DNA of 64,000 bases from Benincasa hispida (taxonomy: Eukaryota > Streptophyta > Magnoliopsida > Cucurbitales > Cucurbitaceae), in the NCBI RefSeq assembly GCF_009727055.1, contig NC_052357.1:86294959-86358958 (forward strand), given 5' to 3'. The notes under the pieces are model-generated. The model was given only the letters and a program-made list of their open reading frames with translations. It did not search any database and had not been told where the DNA came from. The position numbers and the translations under genes were made by a program. This document shows positions 8,351 through 62,048 of this stretch, one piece after another (position 1 is the stretch's first letter; each line of letters starts with the position of its first letter).

Positions 8351-11299
8351 CCATTATTTTAAATTGATATAATTATTAATTTAAGCTTTAAATTTGTGAT
8401 TTATCTCAAATTATTTCATCTTAAAGTACAGTTTTTTTTTTACCTGAAAAACCGAGAAAATAGAATTAAAGCATGACCACATAATTATAATAATAATAAT
8501 TAAATAAAAGTAAATTCTTATATTCTCATATTTAATTCTAATACAGGCTGTTAGGAATCAAGGCACGAGGTTTTATTAATAACAAATGGTCTATCTNTAT
8601 ATATTTGAATTATATTAATTATAATTTGTCAATGAATTATTAATGAGAATTAAAAAGCATCCAAAGACATTGTCTATAGTTAGTGGGAAGGAGGATTCTT
8701 ACACACATATATAATTGATCTACTTTTCTCTATTTCTAATTCAACCAAAAAAAAAAGTCTTCTATTTTTTGTTTTAAACAAATCTTTTAGTATTTTATTT
8801 TAGAAATATTTCATCAGTGATTCTTTCTAGAAGCTACCACAACAACCAAATGGAACATTTCTCCCTTCCTTTTTTTTTTCCCCTATGAAAATGACAATCT
8901 CTTAGAATAAATTTAAATTGTTTAATTCCATATTAGTTTTTGTATTATGGTTTAACATTCAAATTTTATGATTTTAACCCAAATTGCTTAATCTAAATGG
9001 AATTAGAAAAAAGAAAAGAAAAGAAAAGAAAACTCTCCAAAATTAAAAGTTTTTTTTTAATAAAATATTTCATCTTATTAAAACTAGAACAATTTCTACC
9101 CTTGGATGATATTAATGAACATTTTTCTAAAAAAAAAAGAACTACTTGATCGAAGCAGAGTATATTGCATGAAATTATATAAATGTTATGAGTTATAACA
9201 TTGGTTGGATGCTATTACGCAAAGAATTAATGAAGAATCTAATTATTATTCATGACTCACACAAATATAAGACTTTACTTATTCTTAAATAGGAAAAATA
9301 TAACCGTCAATTACGAGCTAATATTAAATTAATAATAAAGAATTAATTAAACTATTTTACAGTTACTAAAAATTTCTCATTTAATATTAAATCAATACAT
9401 GTAATAAATGCAAAGAAAATATAGTTGTGGTACATATATAAATTACTTACTATCTTTTATCAAACACTCATTTCAAGTGCAACAATATCCATTATTAACT
9501 CTCAATAGAGAGACAATAATGCAAGGTATAAGTTTAAAATCTTTTAAAGAATTACAATGTATCAATTTTACCATATATAAAAAAGTTGTGTCCATTCATT
9601 TTTATTTGTAATAATCAATTAAAACACGAGTATAAACTCTCTAAATTTTAACTTAAAATTCTATGTTAAATTTTGTAATATACATGTTATTCCACTGTTA
9701 AAAGACTGTGAATGATTTTTTTTTTTCTTTTTTTCTTTTTAGAAAGAAAAAGTAGATTTATAAACCTAATTTTGTGATACATGGAATGTAATTAAGAAAG
9801 TAGAGGAAAGTAAAAATAACAATGAACAATTCATTTCACCTTAAAAAAAAGTGTATGAACTTGAGCCTATCAGATAAAAGGCTGCTCCAATTCCACCAAA
9901 CAATCACACTAATCAAGAAACACCATTACATGAAGGGAAGGCCTATGATTGCGTGCTTCCAAATCCCAATAACTCAAAAGATTTTTTTCCTTTCTTTCTT
10001 TTGGCCATAGTTTTTTTTTTTTTTCTCATTTTAAATTTCTTCTAATGGATTCGAATTCGGTTAGTCTTTAGTTGTATTTTAATTTCAACGATTTAATAGT
10101 CGTAGCTTCGAATATGTATAGTAGCATGTCAATCTTGTTATAATGGAATTAGATTATGAAGTTTCTCTTGTTAAAATATTAGCTATACCGAAGGGTCTTC
10201 TTTTTACAAAATTTCTTTCCCGCCTCAAAATTAATGTTGAATCCAAGCTATCAACCAAATTTCTAGAGAGAAGAATTGTTGGTACATTGAAGACATCAAA
10301 AAGCTTGAGAAGAATTTTGATTCGATTTCCTTTATACATTGATATCTTGGCAAAAGAAGCAAGATCTAATGGTCTTAATTCTATATGGTGCTCTAATTAT
10401 CCCACGTGGACTGTAAAAATTGTCCTCAAGGATAATATTTCAAATTATCCCTAAGTGGTTACTTAATAAATTTTTTTATATTCAATTAAAAAAAGTAGCA
10501 GGTTAATACGAAGACGATTTCAAACTAAATAAATTATAGATTGAATATTAGACAACACAACATATTTGAGGTAGAAAAGTAACATAGCAAAATCAAAATA
10601 GTTTATTTTAAAAGATTTGAAAATCAAAGTTAATATTTTTAAGGTTTGACCAAAATGAACAAACTAAATAAGTTATAGCTTCATATTTATATTCACCAAA
10701 ATCGTATAAATATAAAAGTTGAAGCACTAAAATGAAATTTAAATTTGTTTTTCTTCCATTCAAATCAGGCTTATTTTGTTGGTGTGGTAAAAGCTTAAAC
10801 TTGAGCATCCATATTACAACACAGAGAAACTTTTATGACTGATTTTGTTGAAAAGACAGCCCTATGTATATATATTTTCAGCTTTATCCATAAGTCTTTT
10901 CAGAGATTCCCAATACATATTTCATTTGTTGATGATCCAATTTTCCTTTTTGGTTTGTGTTATTCCCAATGGTCAGACAATATATCATAACTTACTTTTT
11001 TTCTAAAATATATCTATTTTTTTTTTTCCATTAAATCTTTCCTAATGTTTCTCCTCTACTTGTATTTCTTTAAAAAGAATAATATTAATAATAAAAAAAA
11101 CTTGACACTAAATTTTATGATCATGTATCAATTTTAACTCTACAATTTTAATTTCATCAAATTTAGATGTGTTGTAATTTTAATTTTAATCTATACTATA
11201 TATGAAAGAGATTACGAGAGAAGAATCTTTACATCCCCATTTTATCCTTATATCTTTTAATAATTCCTATTTTACCATTTGTTATAATTATTCGAGTTG

Positions 11300-29299: not shown

Positions 29300-32200
29300 G
29301 ATGTAATTTCTGTAATCGGGAATTGTAGAGTTTTGAGCACTGCGAAAGCTTTATTGAATTGAAAAGGAGGGGAGAAAAGAAAAAAAGAGGAATTTTTTTA
29401 AAGGTTGAATGTTGTCCGAATTGGTTTTGAGAATTATTGTTTCTCTTACAAAATTACAAGGCGTCTGGTAATTGAATTCAAGCTTCTAGCTGTATGTTTC
29501 TGTGTCAATGGTCTCAATCTTTATTTTTTATTTGAAATAAGTTAAAAGAATGATGGATTTCACTTTGAAAGATAAAAGTGGAAATTAAGATAAAATGACA
29601 AATAGATTTTTAAAAAATATATAATCCAAAAATTATATAGCCCATCTTCCATATAATTTATATTATTGATCGTGTAGTTAGTTAAAAGTTTGATTATCCA
29701 TCTTACAAGTTGTGATAAGAACATAAACATTTCAAAACTACGATGGACTATAAATTTTAAAATTTTGAATTTAAATTGAGATTTTGTGTGGTGATGATCT
29801 AGAATAAAAATTTGGATCACCAACCATTTTAAGTTCTATTTATGTGTAATTTCAAAGGTAATTTTAATAAGCTAAAAGTAATATTACAACTTTAAAAAGA
29901 ATAATTTTTTTTCTTCAAATAAATGACAAATTTTATGTGCATTTTTTTATAACTTAGACACAAAAATAGAAAAGAAAAAAAAAAAAAAAACTTTAGCCAC
30001 GTCAGATCAACATTTTATTCCTAGTTTTCAACTTTTTAAAAATAAACTTACTGAAACTACACCCTTGGGGAAATTTTAAAACAAAAAGAGATTTCTAAAA
30101 TGTTTTTTTTTAACATTTCACTAAAAATTCAAAAAATAAAAACCTCTATATAAAGAGACTTTTAAAATGTCTTTTTTCTTTTAAAAAAAAACATTTCATT
30201 AAAAATTCAAAAAATAAAAACCTATACCCTATATAAAAGATGTCATGAGGGGAGAATCATTCTCTCCATTTTGTCCCTATTTTTTCAAAAAAATAAATTA
30301 GTATTTTATCTTTTTTAGATGGGACAAAATCCTTTTAAGCGTGTTTGTTAACTGCGCAATTGATACCAAATAAGAATCGAGTTTTCAATTCCCCTTATAA
30401 AATTGTAGTAAATCTATAAAATAAAGTTTAGAAAACGCTGACACAACAAATTTTATAAAATAAAAACTATATATTTTAGAAATAAAAAATTAGGGAATTT
30501 TCAAAAATAAAAAATAAGAAAAATTATTTACAAAATTTAATAATCTTTTATTGAGGCTGATAGAAGCATATCAGTGTTTATCAGTGATAGAAGCTAATGG
30601 AAGTCTATCATTGACACTATCAGTGATAGAAATTGATACAAGTTTATCACTGATAGACGTTGATAGAAGTCTATCATTAATAGAAGTTGATAGAAATCTA
30701 CCAATGTTTATCAATTATTGAAATTGATATAAATCTATCATTGACACTATAGTGATAGAAATTGATACAAGTTTATCATTGATAGACGTTGATAAAAATC
30801 TATCAGAATTTATCAATATTTTTTTTTTACTATTTACAAAATTTTAAAAGGGAAAATAAAGTGAGAGAGAGAGAAAAATCTTTTTTTTTTAACAAAAACA
30901 CTAGAAAGAGGGAGAAAACTTGAGAAAAATGAGAGAGAAAAAAATTAGCCTAAAGAGACAAATAAAATAAAATTGTATTATTTTATTTTTCTTATGATCA
31001 TAGTTTAAAATTTCCATCGAAATCTAGAAATATCAAATAAAATTAAATTGTACTGATATTTGAGATTTCGAGGGCTCAAAATTTTGATCGGGGAAATTTA
31101 GTTTTTCCTCCAATTTTGACGACAATTTCAAGAATATTCCGATTCCCCAATTTTGACGAAATTTCGAGAAAAATTTTATATATTTTTAATTAACTACATT
31201 AGCCAAGTTCAAGTTTTTCAATTTTGTGGTCCTAATTATACACAATTCCATAGTTTTATACACCAATGTCAATTTTGAATTTTCAACTTTTCTCAAATTT
31301 TAGCTTTATTTTTTAGTTAAAACTTTCATTTTTAAAGAAATTGAATTTGAAAAATCACAAATATGACCTATATTTATTTTAAAATCATTCAAACTTTTTT
31401 CATTAGATTTTCAAATCATTTCACCTCAAAATTGAATTGATGTGAGTTTTTTTTTCTTTTACCATCCAAAATTTTCATAATTTTCACATCATTTCACTTC
31501 AAAATATTTCTAAACTTTATTATTTTGTAATTAATTTTCTATTTATTTTTTAAAATTTCGGCTCTCATATCAACAATTACACATACATTTACAATAGGCA
31601 TCTAAATATTGTTTTACTTTATAGAAATTGTTATTAGAAATGGTCAATTATAATCTAATTAAGCTACAACGAAAATTTCATTAATTAATTATAACAATTT
31701 TCATTAATTTCCATTAATATTTCCATAAAATCGAGACGTCGATATTTCGAACTTTGTTTATGACATTAAATCTTATTTATGTTCAACATTGATTCTCGTT
31801 ACCTTTGAAAAGTAGGAAATTAATGGTTATAATATAAATATTTTATTTATGATTACGTTTTTGTTTGGATTATTACATTGTAGTTTAAGACAATAAAATA
31901 GGTGTGCAAATTATATCATATAATTGTCTTTGAGTGTTTTTTAGACAATTAAATACTATTTTAAAACTTTAAATTAAAAATTTGACATTTTTCAAAAATA
32001 AAAAGGTTAAAAATAGAAGAAGAAAATGAAATTTAAAAACAAAAACCATGGTCTCTCTATTCCATCTCAAGTACAACCCACTCCCTATCCCTTTCAATTT
32101 TGGAGATTTTCAGCCATCATCCCATAATTTCATTTCTACTATTTTTTATTTTTTTATTTTTTTAAAAATATCTAAGGAAATCCAGTTCTCAAATTTTGAT

Positions 32201-35580: not shown

Positions 35581-37995
35581 TTAGAGTTCATAAGATGGGA
35601 ACTTTGCTGCATAAGGCTCAATCATGTCAAAAAAGAGATATGCCATTCCCCCAATTCCTTCAAACAAGGAATAAGGGCTATCACCAGAATGCATTTTTCC
35701 TTCTGAAATTAGCGTTTGTGCATTCTGATGCAGAAAGCATGCAAATGCTTTGGCTCTGTACAAGTGTATGAAATCACCGGTTAACCGGTAAAGTGAAAGA
35801 AACACATACGTGTTACCACTAATTCCATGGCAGATGCCGACCCGTTTCAGCAGACCACGGTTCCACACGACTTCCCCAGCATCCAATGCCGCTTGCAGAA
35901 ACTCATCGTCTCCAAAAACCTGGTGTAGATGCATACATAGAGATGAATACTATGATTACTTGGATCTTTAGTAATACAGATCTAAAGACAAGAATGATAA
36001 TGAATACCTCAGCTGCTTTTACGAGGGTAAGTGCAACCCCAGGAGCACCATGGCACCAGTGCACCAGACAGTCAGATTTGTTTCCTTCGCTCGAAGGATA
36101 ATTACCACTTGGAAATCGATTTTTTATCATGTAACGTAACGTATTCTTGACATCCTCAACTTCATCTGGTTTCAGTTCCATGTTCATCAAGACATGCATG
36201 ATTCCAGCCAGTCCATGGGCAGCACCCCAGTACTTCTTCCCATGCCATTCATACATCAATGGAGATTTCCTCTTCTTACCCAATCCTCTACCAGCCTCAA
36301 TGACTTCATCCACCACTGATCTCTACCCAAAATGATAATCCATTAGATGAGGAATTCTGCAGATTCTCAAGTTAAGAAGGTCAAGTGAGAGTATGTGACC
36401 GACATGGCATACCATAATAGTGTTAGATATTGTGTTCCAACCAACATGCTTGTTTAGGAACAAACAGGCCCATAGGAACCCTGCTCTGCCATATAGCAGT
36501 TCATTTGGTAAATCACTAGGTAGTTTGATCTGCTCTCACAGGCATATAAATGGGGTATTAAATTTCGTAAGCATAGAAATGTAAGGAAGCCAACATGAAA
36601 TCATTGGTGAAAGAGCATTACATCTTTAAACTTTTCCAAGTAATGATCGACTAGGCTTCCATCATTGGCGAGCTTTGCTGCAACTGCACCAAGAGCACAA
36701 ACTCCAGCTTGGCCACAGATAAATGACACACGCCTGCAAGGAACGTGAAAAGGGATTGAGAACAGGATTGACACTTAAATTAGGAATGAGCTGAAATACA
36801 TTCCAAATAACCAATTTCACCAGAACTAAGAATCAACACATATATCTCGACATCAGACAAGAAAGATTGGATTGAGCTATACATTTTCATCTTTCATTTT
36901 GTAGCTTCAGAATTTGCATTTCAATCCTCAGAAATGCCTAATTTCACCAGAACTCCGAATCAACACATATATCTCCACGTCAGACGAGAAAGATTGGATT
37001 AAACTATACATTTCCATCTTTTATTTTGTAGCTTCAAAATTTGCATTTCAATCCTCAGAAATTACCAATGTCACAACTCAGTATCAACACATATATCTCC
37101 ACATCAGACAAGAAAAATTAGATTGAACTATACATTTCCATCTTTTATTTTGTAGCTTCAGAATTTGCATCAGTCCTAAAAAATAACCAATTTCACCAGA
37201 ACTCAAAATCAACACGTATATCTCCACATAGACAAAAATGATCAGATTGAACTATACATTTCCATCGGTTATTTTGTAGTTTTAGAATTTCCATTGCAGT
37301 CCTCTAATTTGATTCAGTCTTATTAATAGTCCCTCTCAACAATTAACCATATTGATTTTATTTTTGACAAGGAACTGACTCTATCTCCACCATTCTTCAT
37401 ATTTACATAAACTCATTAAATACTCCATTGAAATTAACTTATTCACAAAATACAGGGACTATCCAAAAGATCAAACTAAAATACAAAGAACAAGACAAAA
37501 CTTGGTACAGGAAAACACAATTGAAACGAAAAATTACCTCGAATTTCTAGATACAGACTCACAGGCAGTGACAATCTCAGAACACAATTTGAGATCATTC
37601 TCATTTTTAGAAACTAGGTAGGATTTCAAAGCCAGGAAAGCCGTCCCTAATGCTCCAGTATACAAAGTATAATCCTGCACATGCCTTCCACCCAACGCCC
37701 ACGTCTCTCTCACGACCTAAAACTATAAATTTCAGACCAAAAAAGAAAGGAGCCCTAGAAAAGCATAAAACCTCCGGAAATTTCTGAAAACGAACCGAGT
37801 AACTAAAGGTACCGTTTCTTTGAGGTTGAGAGCTGTCTGTCTAAGGCGATCGGAAAGTGCAGCGTCGGGAAGTGGAAGGAGCTCTGTGGGAATGAGAGTG
37901 TGGTTGGCGGAATCGGAATCGGACGCTGCGAGTTGGTCCGCCGGTGATTCGGCAAGGGAGCGTGGCATCCGGTTTGGAAAGAAACGGTCGGACAT
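35581..37995 (-). CDS. LanC-like protein, GCR2/GCL family (6 exons, 414 aa)
   Basis: Minus-strand exons in coding order: 37813-37995, 37538-37716, 36622-36733, 36413-36529, 36008-36322, 35581-35919. They sum to 1,245 nt with consistent phases. The protein is a lanthionine-synthetase-C-like alpha-toroid protein. The zinc ligands expected for LanC proteins are visible: C287 in HWCHGAPG and C332-H333 in GICHG. Family GXXG-type segments such as YTGALGTAF, ELLYGRAGFLWA, YWGAAHGLAGIMH and FEGIGGMAY are in order, and the protein ends FPSYEL. Length fits the Arabidopsis GCR2/GCL proteins (about 405-433 aa). GCR2 was once proposed as an abscisic-acid GPCR, a claim later disputed; animal LANCLs act with glutathione. 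Intron 2 (36734-37537) carries a tandem repeat. The start begins MSDRFFPN, a usual opening for the family. Confidence 0.95.
36811..37310. repeat. Intronic tandem repeat, about 4 units of 122-128 bp
   Basis: Units begin near 36811, 36937, 37065 and 37187, each opening with CCAATTTCACCAGAACT or a close variant. Each then carries 'atcaacacatatatctc(c/g)ac', 'attg(g)a..aactatacatt' and 'attttgtagcttcagaattt'. The block lies entirely within intron 2 of the LanC-like gene and explains most of that intron's 804 bp. The units differ by small indels and substitutions, so the duplication is not recent. Confidence 0.85.
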
Positions 37996-49012: not shown

Positions 49013-50875
49013 TGTCACGATAAAATTGATCTTATGTCACACAATGCATGGATGCATATGATGCAAGTTCATGTCCCCGTAACCAGTTTCCTGGCAATGG
49101 CGCCATAAACTTGTTACGGTAAAATTGCTTCCTTATTAATGATGCATGCGTTAATGAACTCAATTTATGCAATACTATTTCTAGATATGCGTTATTAATG
49201 GATGCTCTTGTAGTATGCTGTATGTTGTCACAAGTTTCCTTACGTTGGAACTAAGTGTAATTCCACCGCAAGTTTCTCAGTGTGATCCGAGGTCAAACAC
49301 AGGGACTGTTTGAGGTTATTGCGTTATGTTTATGATACATGCGACTAGGTTTTTTTTTTCTTTTCAATTTAATAAAAGTATTTGTGTACAAGTATATAAA
49401 GTTGCAATAAAGTGAAGGAAAGCAATAAAAATGCGATAATAAAATAAAATGCAGTAAACCTAAGCTAAGATGGCAAAAGATACAAGCGGCATGATCTAAA
49501 ATATTGAGGGCAAGGCTGGCTGTGAAGATTATACACAGATCATGTGATGCGATGGCAAGTCTTATGTACGAAGCAGAAAGAGAAAGATAACTAATATAAA
49601 CATCGGAAGTTCCTTAATTGTGTTAAAATGATAAGTATGGTTACACCTTTCAGTGATCAGCCGCATTCTCATATGTCTGTGGTGAAACAGAGATGAACCT
49701 GATGAACGCAAGGTTGCTTCTATTCTTGGAAGTACTACTCGTTCTAGTTAACGCATTCTTCTGACCTTCTCTCGATAGATCAGAATGACATCTTCACTTC
49801 TTCTCTCATAGGTGAAGATGTCATGCTCATGCCTTAGCTAAACGCAATTATCTCTCTAACACAGATTAAGTACTCGTTTAATTCATATTGACTACCCGGG
49901 GATCAAGAACACTTCATGAAGAAAACGATAAACGGAGGAACGAAAATAGACAGAGAAGTGGTAATGAAAACGATCGAGACATTCAATATATCTATTTAGC
50001 GTCTGATACATGGTGTGTGAATGAAGAGATAAAGAAGATGAGATACACTGATGAAAAGAGATAGAAACAAATACAAATAAGTGCCAACGTCTCAACACCG
50101 ATTTGGATGGAGATTTGCTTGCCAGAATGGATGGATTGTGTGGAAGGATGAGCTTCTCTCCTAGGCTTGCTTAATCGGTAGAAGGGATCTGAGTATAGAG
50201 CTTCACGGCGGGGATCTGGCAGATTAACACTAAGACTCACCTCTCGGCCTTGCGTCTTCTTCTTCCCGGATTTCTTCAGTTTAACACTCAGCTCAGCCTC
50301 TTTCTCAATATAATAGCAGCAATTAGCCCAGTATCGAGTAACCTCTTTTTTTGTGAATTCTATGGGGTATTTATAGGTGAAGATCTTTTGACTCTGGCCT
50401 TGTGGTCCCCACTTGTTGTTATGGAAATTCTGATGATGGAGGGATATTATTCCTTCTGTTATGCAATCAGACAGTCAAATCTGCACAACCGTTCGGCGTA
50501 CACGTGGCATAATCCTCCGCATTTGCGTTGCTCAGCTGCATCTTTCGATCGAGTGTTCGCATGTGGTGTTGTTTTGCGTATGCGGGTGAAAGTCAGCTCA
50601 GGATCGACTGTCGCATTGCGCCGTCATTGCATTAATCGCCTTTTCATTGTTGATTAATGGGTGCAATATGTCAAAGATGCGTTGGTCAGTTTGTCTTGAG
50701 CCTTAATTGCAAACGGTGACTTGGTTTCCTGCAAAATAGAGTAGAAATCTCCTCTCCTTCTATCTTAATGATGTTAGTTCGTGTAATTGTGATAATTCAG
50801 AATTATTGTATTTCTAAGCTAATTTTCATACCTAGATAAGACAGTATAAATAATTTGTATTTCTACAAGTTATCA
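49013..50875 (-). repeat. Athila 3' LTR (1,863 bp)
   Basis: Minus-strand LTR from TGATAACTTG at 50875 to CGTGACA at 49013. It is longer than its partner because it keeps about 800 bp (roughly 49937-50740) that the 5' LTR has lost. Near 49080-49122 it contains an internal second copy of the LTR-edge/PBS segment (GGCAATGGCGCCATAAACTT, then GTTACGG). Confidence 0.88.
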
Positions 50876-52951: not shown

Positions 52952-53548
52952 TCAGCTTTTTACATGCCCACATTGCCTTACTAACTCGAGCGGCAGATGA
53001 CAAGCATTTCCAAAGACCAGGGCGTACGGGGACATGCCAATTGGTGTCTTATAGGTAGTCCTGTATGCCCACAATGCTTCATCAAGCTTGGGTGACCAAT
53101 CCTTCCTAGAAGTACTGACTACCTTCTTCAAGATCGTTTTGATCTCTTTGTTAGAAATTTTCGCCTGCCCATTAGTCTGTGGGTGATACGCAGTCGCAAC
53201 TCGATGGCCGACGTTGAATTTTGTCAACAGGTTGGCAATTATGCGGTTGATAAAGTGGGAACCCTCATCGTTGATTAAGGCTCGTGGCATCCCATATCGA
53301 GCAAAAATGTTCTTCTTCAGAAACTTCGCCACTACGGCCGCATCATTCTTGGCGCATGCGATGGCCTCAACCCATTTTGATACATAGTCAACCGCGACCA
53401 GAATATAGTGATGACCTTCTGATGGTGGAAATGGGCCCATGAAGTCAATTCCCCAAACATCAAATAATTCAACCTCTAAGATTGACGTCAATGGAATTTC
53501 ATTTCTTTTAGACATATTCCCCGTTCTTTGACATCTGTCGCATTGCAC
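52952..53548 (-). pseudogene. Athila integrase core (DDE)
   Basis: A 198-codon open stretch. It has the end of the HHCC zinc region (CDRCQRTG), then the rve core with the three catalytic acids in place: D in GIDFMGPF, D in INDEGSHF and E in ISNKEIK. It ends LPLEL. It is the best preserved part of the element, but the polyprotein is broken on both sides. Confidence 0.85.
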
Positions 53549-53895
53549 AACATGGGCATGGGCATCCTTAAAAAATGTTGGCCAGAAGTAGCCACACTGT
53601 AGGACCTTTATTGCAGTCCGCTGCCTCCTAAAATGTCCTCCATATGAGGAATCATGACAAAGCTCTAAAATGTGTTTGACTTCGCATTCAGGAATGCATC
53701 GTTGTAATATATGATCAGGTCTGAGTCGATATGGGAATGGATCGTCCTAAAAATAAAATTTGGCATCATGTCTTAGCTTTTTCTTCTGCTGGTAAGTATA
53801 GTCATCTGGTATTTGTCCGCAAACGATGAAGTTTACTATGTCCGCATACCAGGGAACATTAATGTCTACTACCATCAGTAGCTCATGGGGAATCT

Positions 53896-54291
53896 TTACT
53901 CAATATCTTTTTCTATCACCTGAACCTCGCAATTTTCCAATCTTGATAAATGATCCGCGACTTGGTTCTCGATGCCCTTCTGGTCTTTGATCTCTAGGTC
54001 AAACTCTTGCAGTAGAAACACCCAACGTATAAGCCTTGGTTTTGCATCCTTCTTTGTCATCAAGTACTTGATCGTAGAATGATCCGTATACAACACAACA
54101 TCTGTTCCGATTAAGTATTGTCGAAATTTCTCCAGTGCAAACACCACTGCGAGCATTTCCTTCTCTGTGGTTGTATAGTTTTCCTGCGCATCATTCAACG
54201 TTTTACTTGCATAATAAAGAGGATGCAATACCTTATCCTTGCGCTGACTCAAAACTACACCCACAGCATATCCACTAGCATCGCACATCAA
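53896..54291 (-). pseudogene. Athila RNase H domain
   Basis: A 131-codon frame with the RNase H acids: [10 protein letters not shown], the [15 protein letters not shown] helix, [10 protein letters not shown], then the VADHLSRL end typical of Gypsy RNase H. Stops occur downstream before the integrase frame. Confidence 0.85.
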
Positions 54292-54329
54292 TGCAAGTGG
54301 TGCGCTCCAAATTCTGGCGCATCAAAATA

Positions 54330-56278: not shown

Positions 56279-56813
56279 TCAGCCTGGACGGGAAAGGTGG
56301 AAGATCCTGCCGTATTTCCTGTTCACTTGGCTGCTTGCGAGGTTCGGTGCTTGCTGCGCTTCATTAGCTGGAGATTTCGTTGATTTAGCATTCATGTCTT
56401 GAAGAGCTTCATCTTTTGTAGATGAACTTACTTCTGAACTGGTACTTTTTCCAATATTAACTGGCTGGTCATCATCAACAATCAAATCGACTAGTGTTGT
56501 TGTTGCGTCTGGTACTGATGACATTGGGGCTGATGTTTTTCCACTCCTCAATGTCACTGCATGATATTGTTCTTTTCCTCGTGGCCCCTGTGCTTTTGAG
56601 CTGCTATGCTTCGTCCCAAGCTCTTTCTTCTTTAATTCCCTCGTAAGCTGCTCTATCTGCTCTTCTAATTCTTTAACGGTGTCAGCTTGCGATTGTCTCA
56701 TTGCCTCGCTCTTTTTAATATAATGTTTTAACGATGTCTTCAGAGACGAGGTGCTGCAAGAGATATCATATAGGAACGGTTGGTCACAGGGTGGTATAAC
56801 TTGGGCATTACTT
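56279..56813 (-). pseudogene. Athila gag, C-terminal linker part
   Basis: A Lys/Glu-rich, partly coiled-coil-like region (TVKELEEQIEQLTRELKKKE) followed by a polar linker. The apparent start codon of this frame (peptide MYKRQ) is inside the sequencing-adapter insert at 56814-56850 and is not a real start. The zinc-knuckle region expected between this and the upstream gag part is missing or damaged at the insert. Confidence 0.65.
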
Positions 56814-56850
56814 TGTCTCTTATACACATCTAGATGTGTATAAGAGACAG
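56814..56850. other. Sequencing-adapter insert (Nextera mate-pair junction)
   Basis: TGTCTCTTATACACATCT (56814-56831) is followed directly by AGATGTGTATAAGAGACAG (56832-56850). The second part is the exact 19-nt Tn5 mosaic end used in Illumina Nextera kits and the first is its reverse complement minus one base. Two mosaic ends head to head are the circularisation junction of Nextera mate-pair libraries. This is an assembly artefact, not a biological palindrome. Confidence 0.97.
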
Positions 56851-57690
56851 TCTCTGCATTGGACGCAATTCATTGGGGCCACGTGAGTTAACACATTAAC
56901 TTGTGCTGATTCTTATGAGAGAGTTCTCTGTTGGTTAGTCATTGTCTGGAGAATTGAGGTCATTGTGGTCATCTGATCGACCAGTGCACTCATTGTATCG
57001 GTTGACACCTCGGCACTTTCTACTCTCTCTTGCTCTAGACCTCTTACCTCAAGCCCAGTCTCAATCCACTCATCAGAATGTCGCAAGATGCGATCCAATA
57101 TGTTCTTTGCCTCCATATATGACTTGTTCATCAAACCTCCTTCTACAGAGGCATCGGCAACTGCTTGTGTTGATTGGTCTAAGCCATTATAAAAGGTTTC
57201 CATCAAAATACTATCAGGAATCTCGATATGCGGACAGCTTTTCATTAACTGTTGGAATCACACCCATGCGATACTCAAGGTTTTGTACCCTTTTTGTTCA
57301 AAATTCAGAACATCCCTCCGTCTCCTTGCGTTGACTGGTGAAGGAAAGAATCTGTTCATGAACCTATCAACCAACTACTCCCAACCATTAATCTTGGCTG
57401 TCTCTAACGCTTGAGCCCACCTCTTAGCCTCATCTCGCAATGTGTACGAGAACATATATAATTTAAGCCTTTCTTGAGTTACACCAGGCATGGAGAATGC
57501 ACTGCACATGTCTACAAAATTCGTCAAATGAACGTGTGGGTCTTCTCCTTATAATCCTCCAAATTGACCCACATTCTGAATCATCTGCAACATGATAGGT
57601 TTTATCTCAAAGCTTAAATTCCCCTCAACCAAGGGTCTTGAAATTCCTGGTGAGAAGTTATAAAACTTCGGCGCCGCATATTCCCTCATA
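56851..57690 (-). pseudogene. Athila gag, N-terminal and middle part
   Basis: Readable gag wording in minus frames with in-frame stops: an opening REYAAPKFYN, VDMCSAFSMPGVTQERLKLY, then LRDEAKRWAQALE and NRFFPSP. The continuous frame 56913-57245 includes FYNGLDQSTQAVADASVEGG. The order fits the Athila capsid domain (retrotransposon gag). Stops at several points make it non-functional. Confidence 0.75.
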
Positions 57691-57911: not shown

Positions 57912-59022
57912 TGTCACGGTAAAATTGATCTTATGTGACACAACGCATGGATGCATATGATGCAAGTTCATGTCCCCGTAACCAGTACCCCGACAACAGC
58001 ACCATAAAATTGTCACGGTAAAATTGCTTCCTTATTAATGATGCATGCGTTAATGGACTCAATTCATGCAATACTACTTCTAGATATGCGTTATTAATGG
58101 ATGCTCTTGTAGTATGTTGTATGTTGTCACAAGTTTCCTTGTGTTGGAACCAAGTATAATTCCACCGCAAGTTTCTCGGTGTGATCCGAGGTCGAACACA
58201 GGGATTGTTTGAGGTTATTGCATTATGTTTATGATACACGCGACCAGGTTTTTTTTTTTTCAATTTAATAAAAGTATTTGTGTACAAGTATATAAAGTTG
58301 TGATAAAGTAAAGGAAAGCAGTAAAAATGTGATAATAAAATAAAATGCAGTAAACCTAAGCTAAGATGGCACAAGATACAAGCAGCATGATCTAAAATAT
58401 TGAGGGCAAGGTTGGCTGTGAAGATTATACACAGATCATATGATGCAATGACAAGTCTTATGTACGAAGCAGGAAGAGAAAGATAACTAATATAAACATC
58501 GCAAGTTCCTTAATTGCGTTAAAGTGATAAGTATGGTTTTGTTTTTCCCTTAGCGTACACCTTTTAGTGATCAGCCGCGTTCCCACATGTCTGTGGTGAA
58601 ACAGAGATGAACGTGATGAATGCAAGGTTGCTTCTATTCTTGGAAGTACTACTCGTTCTAGTTAACACATTCTTTTGACTTTCTCTCGATAGATCAGAAT
58701 GACATCTTCACTTCTACTCTCACAGGTGAAGATGTCTTCTAGCATGCCTTAGCTAAACGCAATTATCTCTCTAACACGGATTAAGCACTCGTTTAATTCA
58801 TATTGACTACCTGAGAATTAAGAACACTTCATGAATAAAACGATAAACAGAGTAGAAATCTCCTCTTCTTCCATCTTAATGATGTTAGTGGGTGTAATTG
58901 TGATGATTAGGAATTATTGTATTTCTAAGCTAATTTTCATACAATTGGTGCATATCTATTCTCTTTTGACCGCAATATCTAGATAAGGCAGTATAAATAA
59001 CTTATATTTCTACAAGTTATCA
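57912..59022 (-). repeat. Athila 5' LTR (1,111 bp)
   Basis: Minus-strand LTR from TGATAACTTG (59022) to CGTGACA (57912). Compared with the 3' LTR it lacks about 800 bp: its sequence jumps at about 58847 from AACGATAAAC to AGAGTAGAAATCTCC. It keeps small segments that the other LTR lost (about 58941-58977 and about 58538-58555). It also has an internal LTR-edge/PBS-like copy at about 57987-58020 (CCCCGACAACAGCACCATAA, then TTGTCACGG). Confidence 0.88.
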
Positions 59023-59027
59023 TTGTC
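59023..59027 (+). repeat. Target-site duplication (right)
   Basis: TTGTC immediately after the element end TTATCA; it pairs with 49008-49012. Confidence 0.9.
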
Positions 59028-59675
59028 GCAATGCTGATTGGTTAAGATGGACACATAATATATCTGTGGTAAGGAGAGTTTAGCTGTCGGTCTTTATTGA
59101 AGTGCCTGACAGTTAACGGATGGTGGATCCCATAACTAAAGAGTTTAGTCAGTTGTTCATGTACCGTTGGAGCTTCGAGCTACAGGTCCATAAGGTCTCC
59201 TTGGTATCTCAATGGATTCAGTTGATGATTAGTTCTTGATGTTGATTTGAAATATTTAAATTAACAAGAGGTATTTTGATTATATATGATATAATCGGTA
59301 TGATGTATGAGATACTTCTAGTGGAGGATTGATGTAAATGAGATTTACATTAAGTACCATGGAATAGAAAAAGAACTATGATTTATATGTTTCATGAGAT
59401 GAAATATTAAAACTATAGGTTATAAATATAGTATGATAAGTTGGTTATCATTTATAATTATAACAATATTAATTATTGGATAATTAATTCTTTTTCTTTA
59501 ATAACCAATTGAGTGGGTGGTTATTGGATTTTCATGGTAATCGTGAGTTAAAAGAAAAATGGTTTTCCTAATTTTAGAAGTTTTTCATAAAAGTTTTTTG
59601 AGATTTCTCTCACAAAAAGGATCTCACAGAGTTGTCAAGTAAATACAGATTTACTAAACAACAGCTTGGGTGAAT

Positions 59676-59870
59676 TAAACAATCGTGCAAGTGGTGAGCT
59701 AAACAATCATACAGTATTTACCAAACGATCGCATAGCTTTTGCTAGACGATCGTTTGCCTAAAGTAAACGATTGTGTAGTGTTTGTAGGCAACAGACACT
59801 AAGCTAAACGATGAGCTAAACGATTGCATAGCTTTTTCTCTACGGTCGCATAGCTTTTGCTAAACGACTA
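59676..59870. repeat. GATCG-core minisatellite inside Copia LTR copy 3
   Basis: Irregular tandem units such as CTAAACGATCGCATAGCTTTT (about 22 bp), with variants AAACGATTG and AGACGATCG. The inverted counterpart is at 60817-61005 in copy 4, and a decayed version is present in copy 2 near 46150-46260. Confidence 0.65.
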
Positions 59871-60295
59871 GGCATCGACCTATACGATAGGTCTCTGCCA
59901 TCTCCCACTTGCTCAGTCGTGTACACGATCGGTGTTTCCTTCTTCATCTGCCTGACCAAGTCTGAATAGAGCCCACCCTCTAGATTCTCACACCGAGAAT
60001 ACCAACGTAGCCTTGTTGGTGGTGTCATACTCAATTCGACATCGTCGAGGTTCTGTGGAGGCTATTTGTGTTGCTGGGGAGTTCGTGACTGAGGCGATCG
60101 TTGAGGACGAGCGCGAAGTGTTCGTGCTGTGTTGCGGTCATGTAGATCGAGCGTTCGAGGTTCCTGTTGTTCGAGTGTTCGTGCGCAAGGGAGCATGGAG
60201 ACTTATCTTTAAATGTTCGTAGAGTTTTCTCTTTGTTCATTTGAGTTTTCATGTTGTAATTTCTGTATTGAAGGAAATCAGATTCGAGATTTCCA

Positions 60296-62048
60296 TGAGC
60301 AGCCGAACAAGATTATTCCAAATCACAATCATAAATGAACAATACATTTACAGACGTCTTCAAATAAGCAGTTATACAATTCATAGAGAAATTACAACAT
60401 GGAAAAAACTACAAATGCTAAAAGGGAAAACTGTACGAACATTTGCAGATGCGTCTCCACGCTTTGTTGGCGATCGCTCGAAAAACAGAAACCTCGAATA
60501 CTCGATCTACACGACTGCAACACAGCAGCACGAACACGTCGCGCTCGGTCACGAACTTCTCAATGATCGCCTCGGTCACGAACTTCTAAGCAACACCACG
60601 AACAGCCTCCACACCACCACGAACGGCGTCCAGAAAACCTCGACAGTGTCAAGTTGAGTCTGACACCACCAACAAGGCGACCTTGGTATTCCCAGTATGA
60701 GAATCCAAAGGGTGGGCTCTGTTCAGACTTGGTATGAGGCAGACGAAGGAGGAAACACCGATTGCGTACACGACGGGCAAGTGGGAGATGGAGGAGACCT
60801 ATCATATAGGTCGATGCCCAATTGTTTAGATAAAGCTATATAATCGTCTAGAAAAAGCTATGCGATCGTTTAGCTCGGTCTGTCGCCTACAGACTCTACA
60901 CGATCGTTTATTTAGGACACGCGATCGTCTAGCAAAACTATGCAATCGTTTGGTAAATATTGCATAATCGTTTAGCTCGCCCCACCGTCGTTTAGTAAAT
61001 CCGTATTTACTTGACGACTCCATGAGTTCCCTTTTTGCCGAGAGAAATCTAAAAAACTTTTATCAACCTTTTATTAAAAAAAAAAAAATTCAAAATAGGA
61101 AAACCACTTTTCTTTTAAACTCAAGTTACCATGACTCCAATAACCACCCATTTGGTTATTAAAGAAAAAGAATTAATTATTCAATAATTAATATTATTAT
61201 AAATATAAATGATAACCAATTTATGATACTATATTTATAACCTATAGTTTTAATATTTCATCTCATGAAACATATATACCATAGTTCTTTTTCTATTCCA
61301 TGGTACTTAATGTAAATCTTATTTACATCAATCCTCCACTAGATGTATCTCATACATCCTACCGATTATATCATATATAATCAAAATATCTCTTGTTAAT
61401 TTGAACATTTGAAATCAACATCAAGAACTGATCATCAACTGATCCATTGAGCTACCAAGGGGACCTTATGGACCTGTAGCTCGAAGCTCCAACGGTACAT
61501 GAATAACTGACTAAACTCTTTAGTCGTGGGATCCACCATTCGTTAACTTTCAAACACTTCAATAAAGACTGACAACTGAACTCTCCTTACCACAGATATA
61601 TTATGTGTCCATCTTAACCAATCAGCAGTGTGACAACCCTTCACAGATCGCTCGTAAGTACAACTAGGCCAATAACCGTTATGCCCCTGTAGTTACATAT
61701 GTCTCCTTAAGTACCACTGATTCCTCTAATGAACATAAGTCATAGTCCTACTATGCTGAGTCTTCTTTTCCAAAGAGAAGCTGTGGCCACCATGGTCAAG
61801 CCACTGAATCAACCCTTAAGGGAGAAATCTCTCTACTTATCCCTGATTCAGGAAAGGGGTGAATTCCATCTTGTGGATTGAGTTCCCAGCTCCCAGATCA
61901 AACAAGTCCCCAAAAAGGTAGTCATGTTGAATTAGCAATCTAGCCACTCTCACCCATACTAATCAAAGGACCACCCTCAAAGGCAGGAGTTCCCAAAACA
62001 CTCAGAATTGAGGTCGTGTCACTTATAGTCATTTAGGTGAGATGCAAG
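60296..62048 (-). mobile_element. Copia-type LTR, copy 4 (minus), interrupted by a second Athila LTR
   Basis: The left edge TGAGCAGCCG is the reverse complement of an LTR end ...CGGCTGCTCA. The block is the mirror image of copy 3 (59028-60285) back to the point where it stops at GAGATGCAAG (62048). In copy 3 the matching sequence continues (CTTGCATCTC at about 48596), so the break is due to the LTR inserted at 62049. The rest of the copy must lie beyond the window. Confidence 0.72.
60817..61005. repeat. GATCG-core minisatellite inside Copia LTR copy 4
   Basis: Inverse-orientation counterpart of 59676-59870: units such as AAGCTATGCGATCGTTTAGC, with variants. Confidence 0.65.

Follow-up and report, generated by a model that had tools for sequence, protein, structure and literature searches.

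A Nextera mate-pair junction adapter inside a gag relic of the wax gourd assembly and its probable role as a local false bridge

The bases at positions 56814-56850 of a 64,000-nt stretch of the wax gourd (Benincasa hispida) assembly, hereafter called the window (C9:86294959-86358958), match 37 of the 38 nt of the Nextera mate-pair junction adapter, with the first C missing. In the assembly as a whole the adapter lies at C9:86351772-86351808. Judging from the sequence, it was very probably built in from untrimmed reads in place of ~213 bp of genomic DNA, the two sides presumably having been joined through it as a local false bridge. The palindrome that the adapter forms is most likely an error rather than a biological feature, because its 36-nt core occurs 10,313 times in the assembly and because it stands at a position where other gag copies carry ~213 bp.

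The Nextera mosaic end is a synthetic sequence of 19 nt, and two of them placed head to head make up the 38-nt mate-pair junction. The plus strand of the window at 56832-56850 is the exact mosaic end. Its reverse complement was found at 56813-56831 with one mismatch, a T for C at 56813 (there were no matches in 100 shuffles). This T is genomic, as the left-flank matches of other gag copies extend through 56813 (query position 314), and the adapter is therefore 37 nt long and carries no strand. The initial annotation had described an exact mosaic end preceded by its reverse complement; the mosaic end is indeed exact, and the reverse complement lacks its first C, having the genomic T instead. 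The adapter identity and the coordinates given there were borne out by the mosaic-end match and the left-flank matches. Positions 56814-56849 form a perfect palindrome with 18-nt arms, and no longer one was found within the window. According to the Skewer paper, the Nextera mate-pair junction lies mid-fragment in every properly built fragment and must be trimmed, and both Skewer and NextClip are trimmers that remove it (PMC4074385). The wax gourd adapter has the same head-to-head mosaic ends as the one that these programs remove, but it sits inside a chromosome-scale assembly, and the window copy differs further in lacking its first base and in the 213 bp of genomic sequence that are gone beside it.

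With as many as 1 or 2 mismatches allowed, no other library adapter was found in the window (TruSeq, Nextera read tails, P5, P7, SMRTbell, nanopore, MGI, 454 and EcoRI-type linkers). A reading of the junction region as structured RNA was rejected, there being no Rfam match at the gathering score in 56500-57200. The sole ambiguous base of the window is an N at 8597, and single Ns are also present in some other wax gourd loci.

A search of the assembly for the adapter, which had been proposed with the initial annotation, covered 912,946,352 bases. The exact 36-nt cores that it returned have a density of ~11 per Mb across 913 Mb, and the number expected by chance from base composition is ~1.5e-12. 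Exact full 38-mers numbered 9,991. Reversed-pattern controls gave 0 for cores and for 38-mers. We infer that the assembly searched is the published draft of B. hispida line B227, which is described as 913 Mb long and built with ALLPATHS-LG and PBJelly from paired-end reads and five mate-pair libraries (2 and 8 kb; PMC6856369). Mate-pair libraries were thus used for that draft; the main text of the paper mentions neither Nextera nor an adapter and leaves the mate-pair kit unnamed (PMC6856369). In the pf3 paper, the B227 assembly is described as incomplete and as highly fragmented (PMC9905507).

In the window, the adapter interrupts a gag relic on the minus strand. Gag sequence downstream of the junction lies at 56500-56813 (as tested; the relic continues beyond) and matches other copies up to 56813. 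Gag sequence upstream of the junction, recognised by the other copies, lies at 56851-57200, with CVQC, the first half of a zinc knuckle, just before the junction. A 196-aa open frame on the minus strand (56279-56869) runs through the adapter and, as had been noted, gains an artefact peptide, VSYTHLDVYKRQ. Three unrelated ENA database proteins found with this frame carry VSYTHLDVYKRQ in two or three copies each, and one match of the frame, a B. hispida protein, is related to the gag itself.

When window positions 56500-57200 were compared with the genome, at least 87 matches were obtained, with 40 of 1,939 candidates scored. Flank spacing was counted in 80 of the 87 rows, leaving out the window itself and six short adapter-matching rows. 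Among the matches listed, 36 copies had a left flank that aligned as far as its end; in all of them the right flank was on the same strand, and in 26 of these 36 the spacing, extrapolated to the flank ends, was exactly 213 bp. The remaining ten spacings were 190, 203, 207, 207, 208, 209, 211, 212, 245 and 307 bp, the 245-bp value belonging to a C3 gag copy that itself holds the adapter. The 50 or more extra bases that had been expected in related copies are accordingly there, in larger number. In a separate comparison of the zinc knuckle, both flanks were present in 27 of 30 loci, comprising the window and 26 rows from 24 distinct copies (two were listed twice). The motif CxxCx3-4Hx4C was kept in 14 of the 26 rows (13 of the 24 distinct copies); the window copy has none, only the CVQC being left. 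The missing ~213-bp stretch carries the rest of the CCHC zinc knuckle in other gag copies, in agreement with the earlier proposal that zinc-knuckle coding sequence is missing at the junction.

Other gag copies hold adapters as well. In a copy on C3 (L162, C3:54249800-54251200), the adapter, at position 612 of the locus, is at the same gag base as in the window with almost no loss; a copy on C4 (L163, position 919) has the adapter together with a 279-bp duplication; and a copy at C8:733729-733762 has a truncated adapter of 34 nt. The region C9:66107700-66117576 contains two gag copies on the same strand ~9.0 kb apart, perhaps tandem copies of the element.

By its sequence features, the element that hosts the junction is a decayed relic of a Ty3/gypsy LTR retrotransposon on the minus strand; its placement in the Athila lineage, the name used in the initial annotation, is putative. 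LTR comparison placed its left LTR (the 3' LTR) at 49013-50875 and its right LTR (the 5' LTR) at 57912-59022, with approximate ends and the right LTR ~0.8 kb shorter. Between the LTRs, Pfam matches identified remains of RNase H at 53899-54321 and of integrase at 52955-53746 (together 52955-54321), so that RNase H comes before integrase in the reading direction, as in Ty3/gypsy elements. The CCHC knuckle of such elements is seen in the related copies; the window copy differs from an intact element in being decayed, with stops and frame changes. Divergence between the two LTRs was K2P 0.072, or ~8 My at a rate of 4.5e-9 taken from the wax gourd paper. A part of the left LTR (49938-50733, ~0.8 kb) has no counterpart at 58852 of the right LTR, representing either a real deletion or assembly loss. 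A 2.6-kb inverted repeat (foldback) at 59023-61636, ~80% self-complementary end to end, starts right where the two LTRs cease to match. The window also has short tandem arrays at 36805-37304 and 30543-30750, their units spaced at 124-127 bp and 64-66 bp.

Junction geometry was determined at 50 consecutive core sites of C1, up to 6.03 Mb, and at the next full 38-mer (n = 51). Sampling as a whole was confined to the initial 6.1 Mb of this one chromosome and to selected gag copies. Full 38-mers were present at 50 of the 51 sites. A direct duplication of 17-213 bp adjoined the adapter on both sides at 19 sites, as compared to 7 of 288 random window points used as a control, and 32 sites had no adjoining duplication. 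Arrays were also found: C1:2861252-2861753 has four adapters at a spacing of 167 bp, and at C1:6026275 two adapters lie 128 bp from each other, the 90-bp units being identical. The loci used for measuring offsets held 33 distinct adapter sites, 18 of which were measurable; 14 offsets were negative (bases written twice) and four were positive (bases lost). Most of the negative offsets are not independent, since what they measure is the site's own duplication. The positive offsets were +212 at the window site (213 by the flank-spacing count), +3 at L162 on C3, +553 at L167 with one comparator, and +102 at L129 with one weak comparator (~76%). The largest offset was ~770 bp; since the loci were only 1.2-3.7 kb long, offsets of 2-8 kb would hardly be visible.

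The occurrence of offsets of both signs suggests that a false bridge was made through the adapter when regions were assembled locally or gaps were closed. Untrimmed mate-pair reads would have carried the junction adapter into the assembly, where every mate-pair fragment end would meet the same self-complementary word of 38 nt. Wherever a region was assembled locally or had its gaps filled, this word could then become a hub at which any left side may be joined to any right side. Where the right side resumed downstream, the bases between would be lost, as we propose for the window (+213); where it resumed upstream, bases would be written twice; and a loop walked again would yield arrays such as the one of four adapters. 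At the window locus, both sides may have reached the adapter and been sealed there with the loss of one adapter base. The step that built the adapter in may have been the patching of gaps with jump reads. Some results count against a hub. A palindromic hub should also yield inverted joins, and inverted flanks were seen at none of the 51 C1 sites, nor at the bacterial (147) and wax gourd (27) sites of a further set. Losses make up only four of the 18 measured offsets, two of them on one comparator each, and the 32 C1 sites without an adjoining duplication show no such geometry. We consider it likely that a false hub was formed by the adapter genome-wide, planting the palindrome at about ten thousand places and deleting or duplicating tens to hundreds of bases.

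The adjoining direct duplications and tandem arrays would also be produced by short circles, if the assembly had faithfully copied single circularised mate-pair molecules (fragment end, junction, then the beginning of that fragment) and no local bridging had taken place. This is unlikely to be the explanation. A circularised fragment places its start after its end, which leads to duplications or long jumps and not to a short colinear loss; the right side should come from upstream, whereas the window resumes 213 bp downstream and the C3 copy L162 resumes ~3 bp downstream. True mate-pair geometry would have outward-facing flanks 2-8 kb apart, whereas in other copies the flanks of the window site are colinear with 213 bp between them, which argues against a faithful single molecule and not against the identity of the adapter.

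It is very unlikely that the adapter is artefactual and the 213-bp loss nevertheless a real deletion in the window gag copy. The gag copies do vary in length here, from 190 to 307 bp, but among the matches listed the stretch is present in all 36 other copies, and in the window copy both edges of the break coincide exactly with the adapter.

Ordinary Nextera tagmentation and mate-pair kits share one mosaic end, so an ordinary tagmentation library could in principle have been the source. The assembly contains 10,764 forward and 10,766 reverse mosaic-end halves (reversed control, 0), and 19,982 of these 21,530 halves (93%) sit in full head-to-head junctions, which fits mate-pair circularisation and not ordinary read-through. 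With the window also free of a Nextera read tail, P5 and P7, we regard a tagmentation source as highly improbable and retain the mate-pair junction.

The same 38-mer was then considered in other sequence collections. It was absent from 50,697 phage records and from 20,395 E. coli records, and was present in five of 72,556 plasmid records. The PLSDB records with the full 38-nt adapter are NZ_CP032357.1, NZ_MT039157.1, NZ_KY978628.1, NZ_MF589339.1 and NZ_MF918372.1; the description of NZ_KY978628.1 calls it a complete sequence. In IMG/VR, the 38-mer was found in seven stretches on six contigs, and none of the three testable sites had a duplication. Prokaryote contigs contained at least 120 stretches with the 38-mer, from at least 17 unrelated organisms among the matches listed (n = 80). 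In bacterial drafts (including Enterococcus, Collinsella and Scytonema), duplications adjoined 27 of 147 junctions, three more being too close to an end, and an exact 9-bp match was found at one of 144, the same as in the shifted control (1). These remnants share the 38-mer and the adjoining duplications with wax gourd, which differs in having its 10,313 cores in one assembly.

An in-vivo Tn5-type insertion was rejected, as an exact 9-bp target-site duplication was found at 0 of 51 C1 sites and 0 of 25 wax gourd sites; one exact 10-bp duplication was present at C1:1804792. More generally, a palindromic element or Tn5-like insertion that truly belongs to the wax gourd genome would accommodate the high copy number and the perfect palindrome, but it is scarcely credible in view of the exact match to a synthetic mosaic end, the freedom of all 10,313 cores from mismatches as against K2P 0.072 between the host LTRs, the lack of 9-bp duplications in the C1 sample and the occurrence of the same 38-mer in drafts of unrelated bacteria.

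No published notice of the adapter defect in wax gourd was found in the literature searched, whose coverage left subscription papers mostly outside, and searches on mate-pair junction contamination and on adapter contamination of reference genomes likewise gave no notice of the wax gourd case. There was no mention of VSYTHLDVYKRQ or THLDVYKRQ in the literature searched. In the portions of text that the search covered, no published notice of the 38-mer as contamination was found, and its appearance there concerns another subject.

Although the palindrome itself is most likely without biological meaning, the defect is genome-wide in the reference of a crop. It can be detected by one exact 36-mer search. 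Masking of the 38 bases would not mend the record, because the adapter often accompanies lost or duplicated sequence where this can be checked. False peptides such as VSYTHLDVYKRQ enter reading frames, and the adapter could be mistaken for a palindrome, a hairpin, a mobile element or a presence/absence variant. If the adapter did act as a false hub, calls made against this wax gourd reference (small structural variants, frameshifts, gene losses) would in part be edits made by the assembly.
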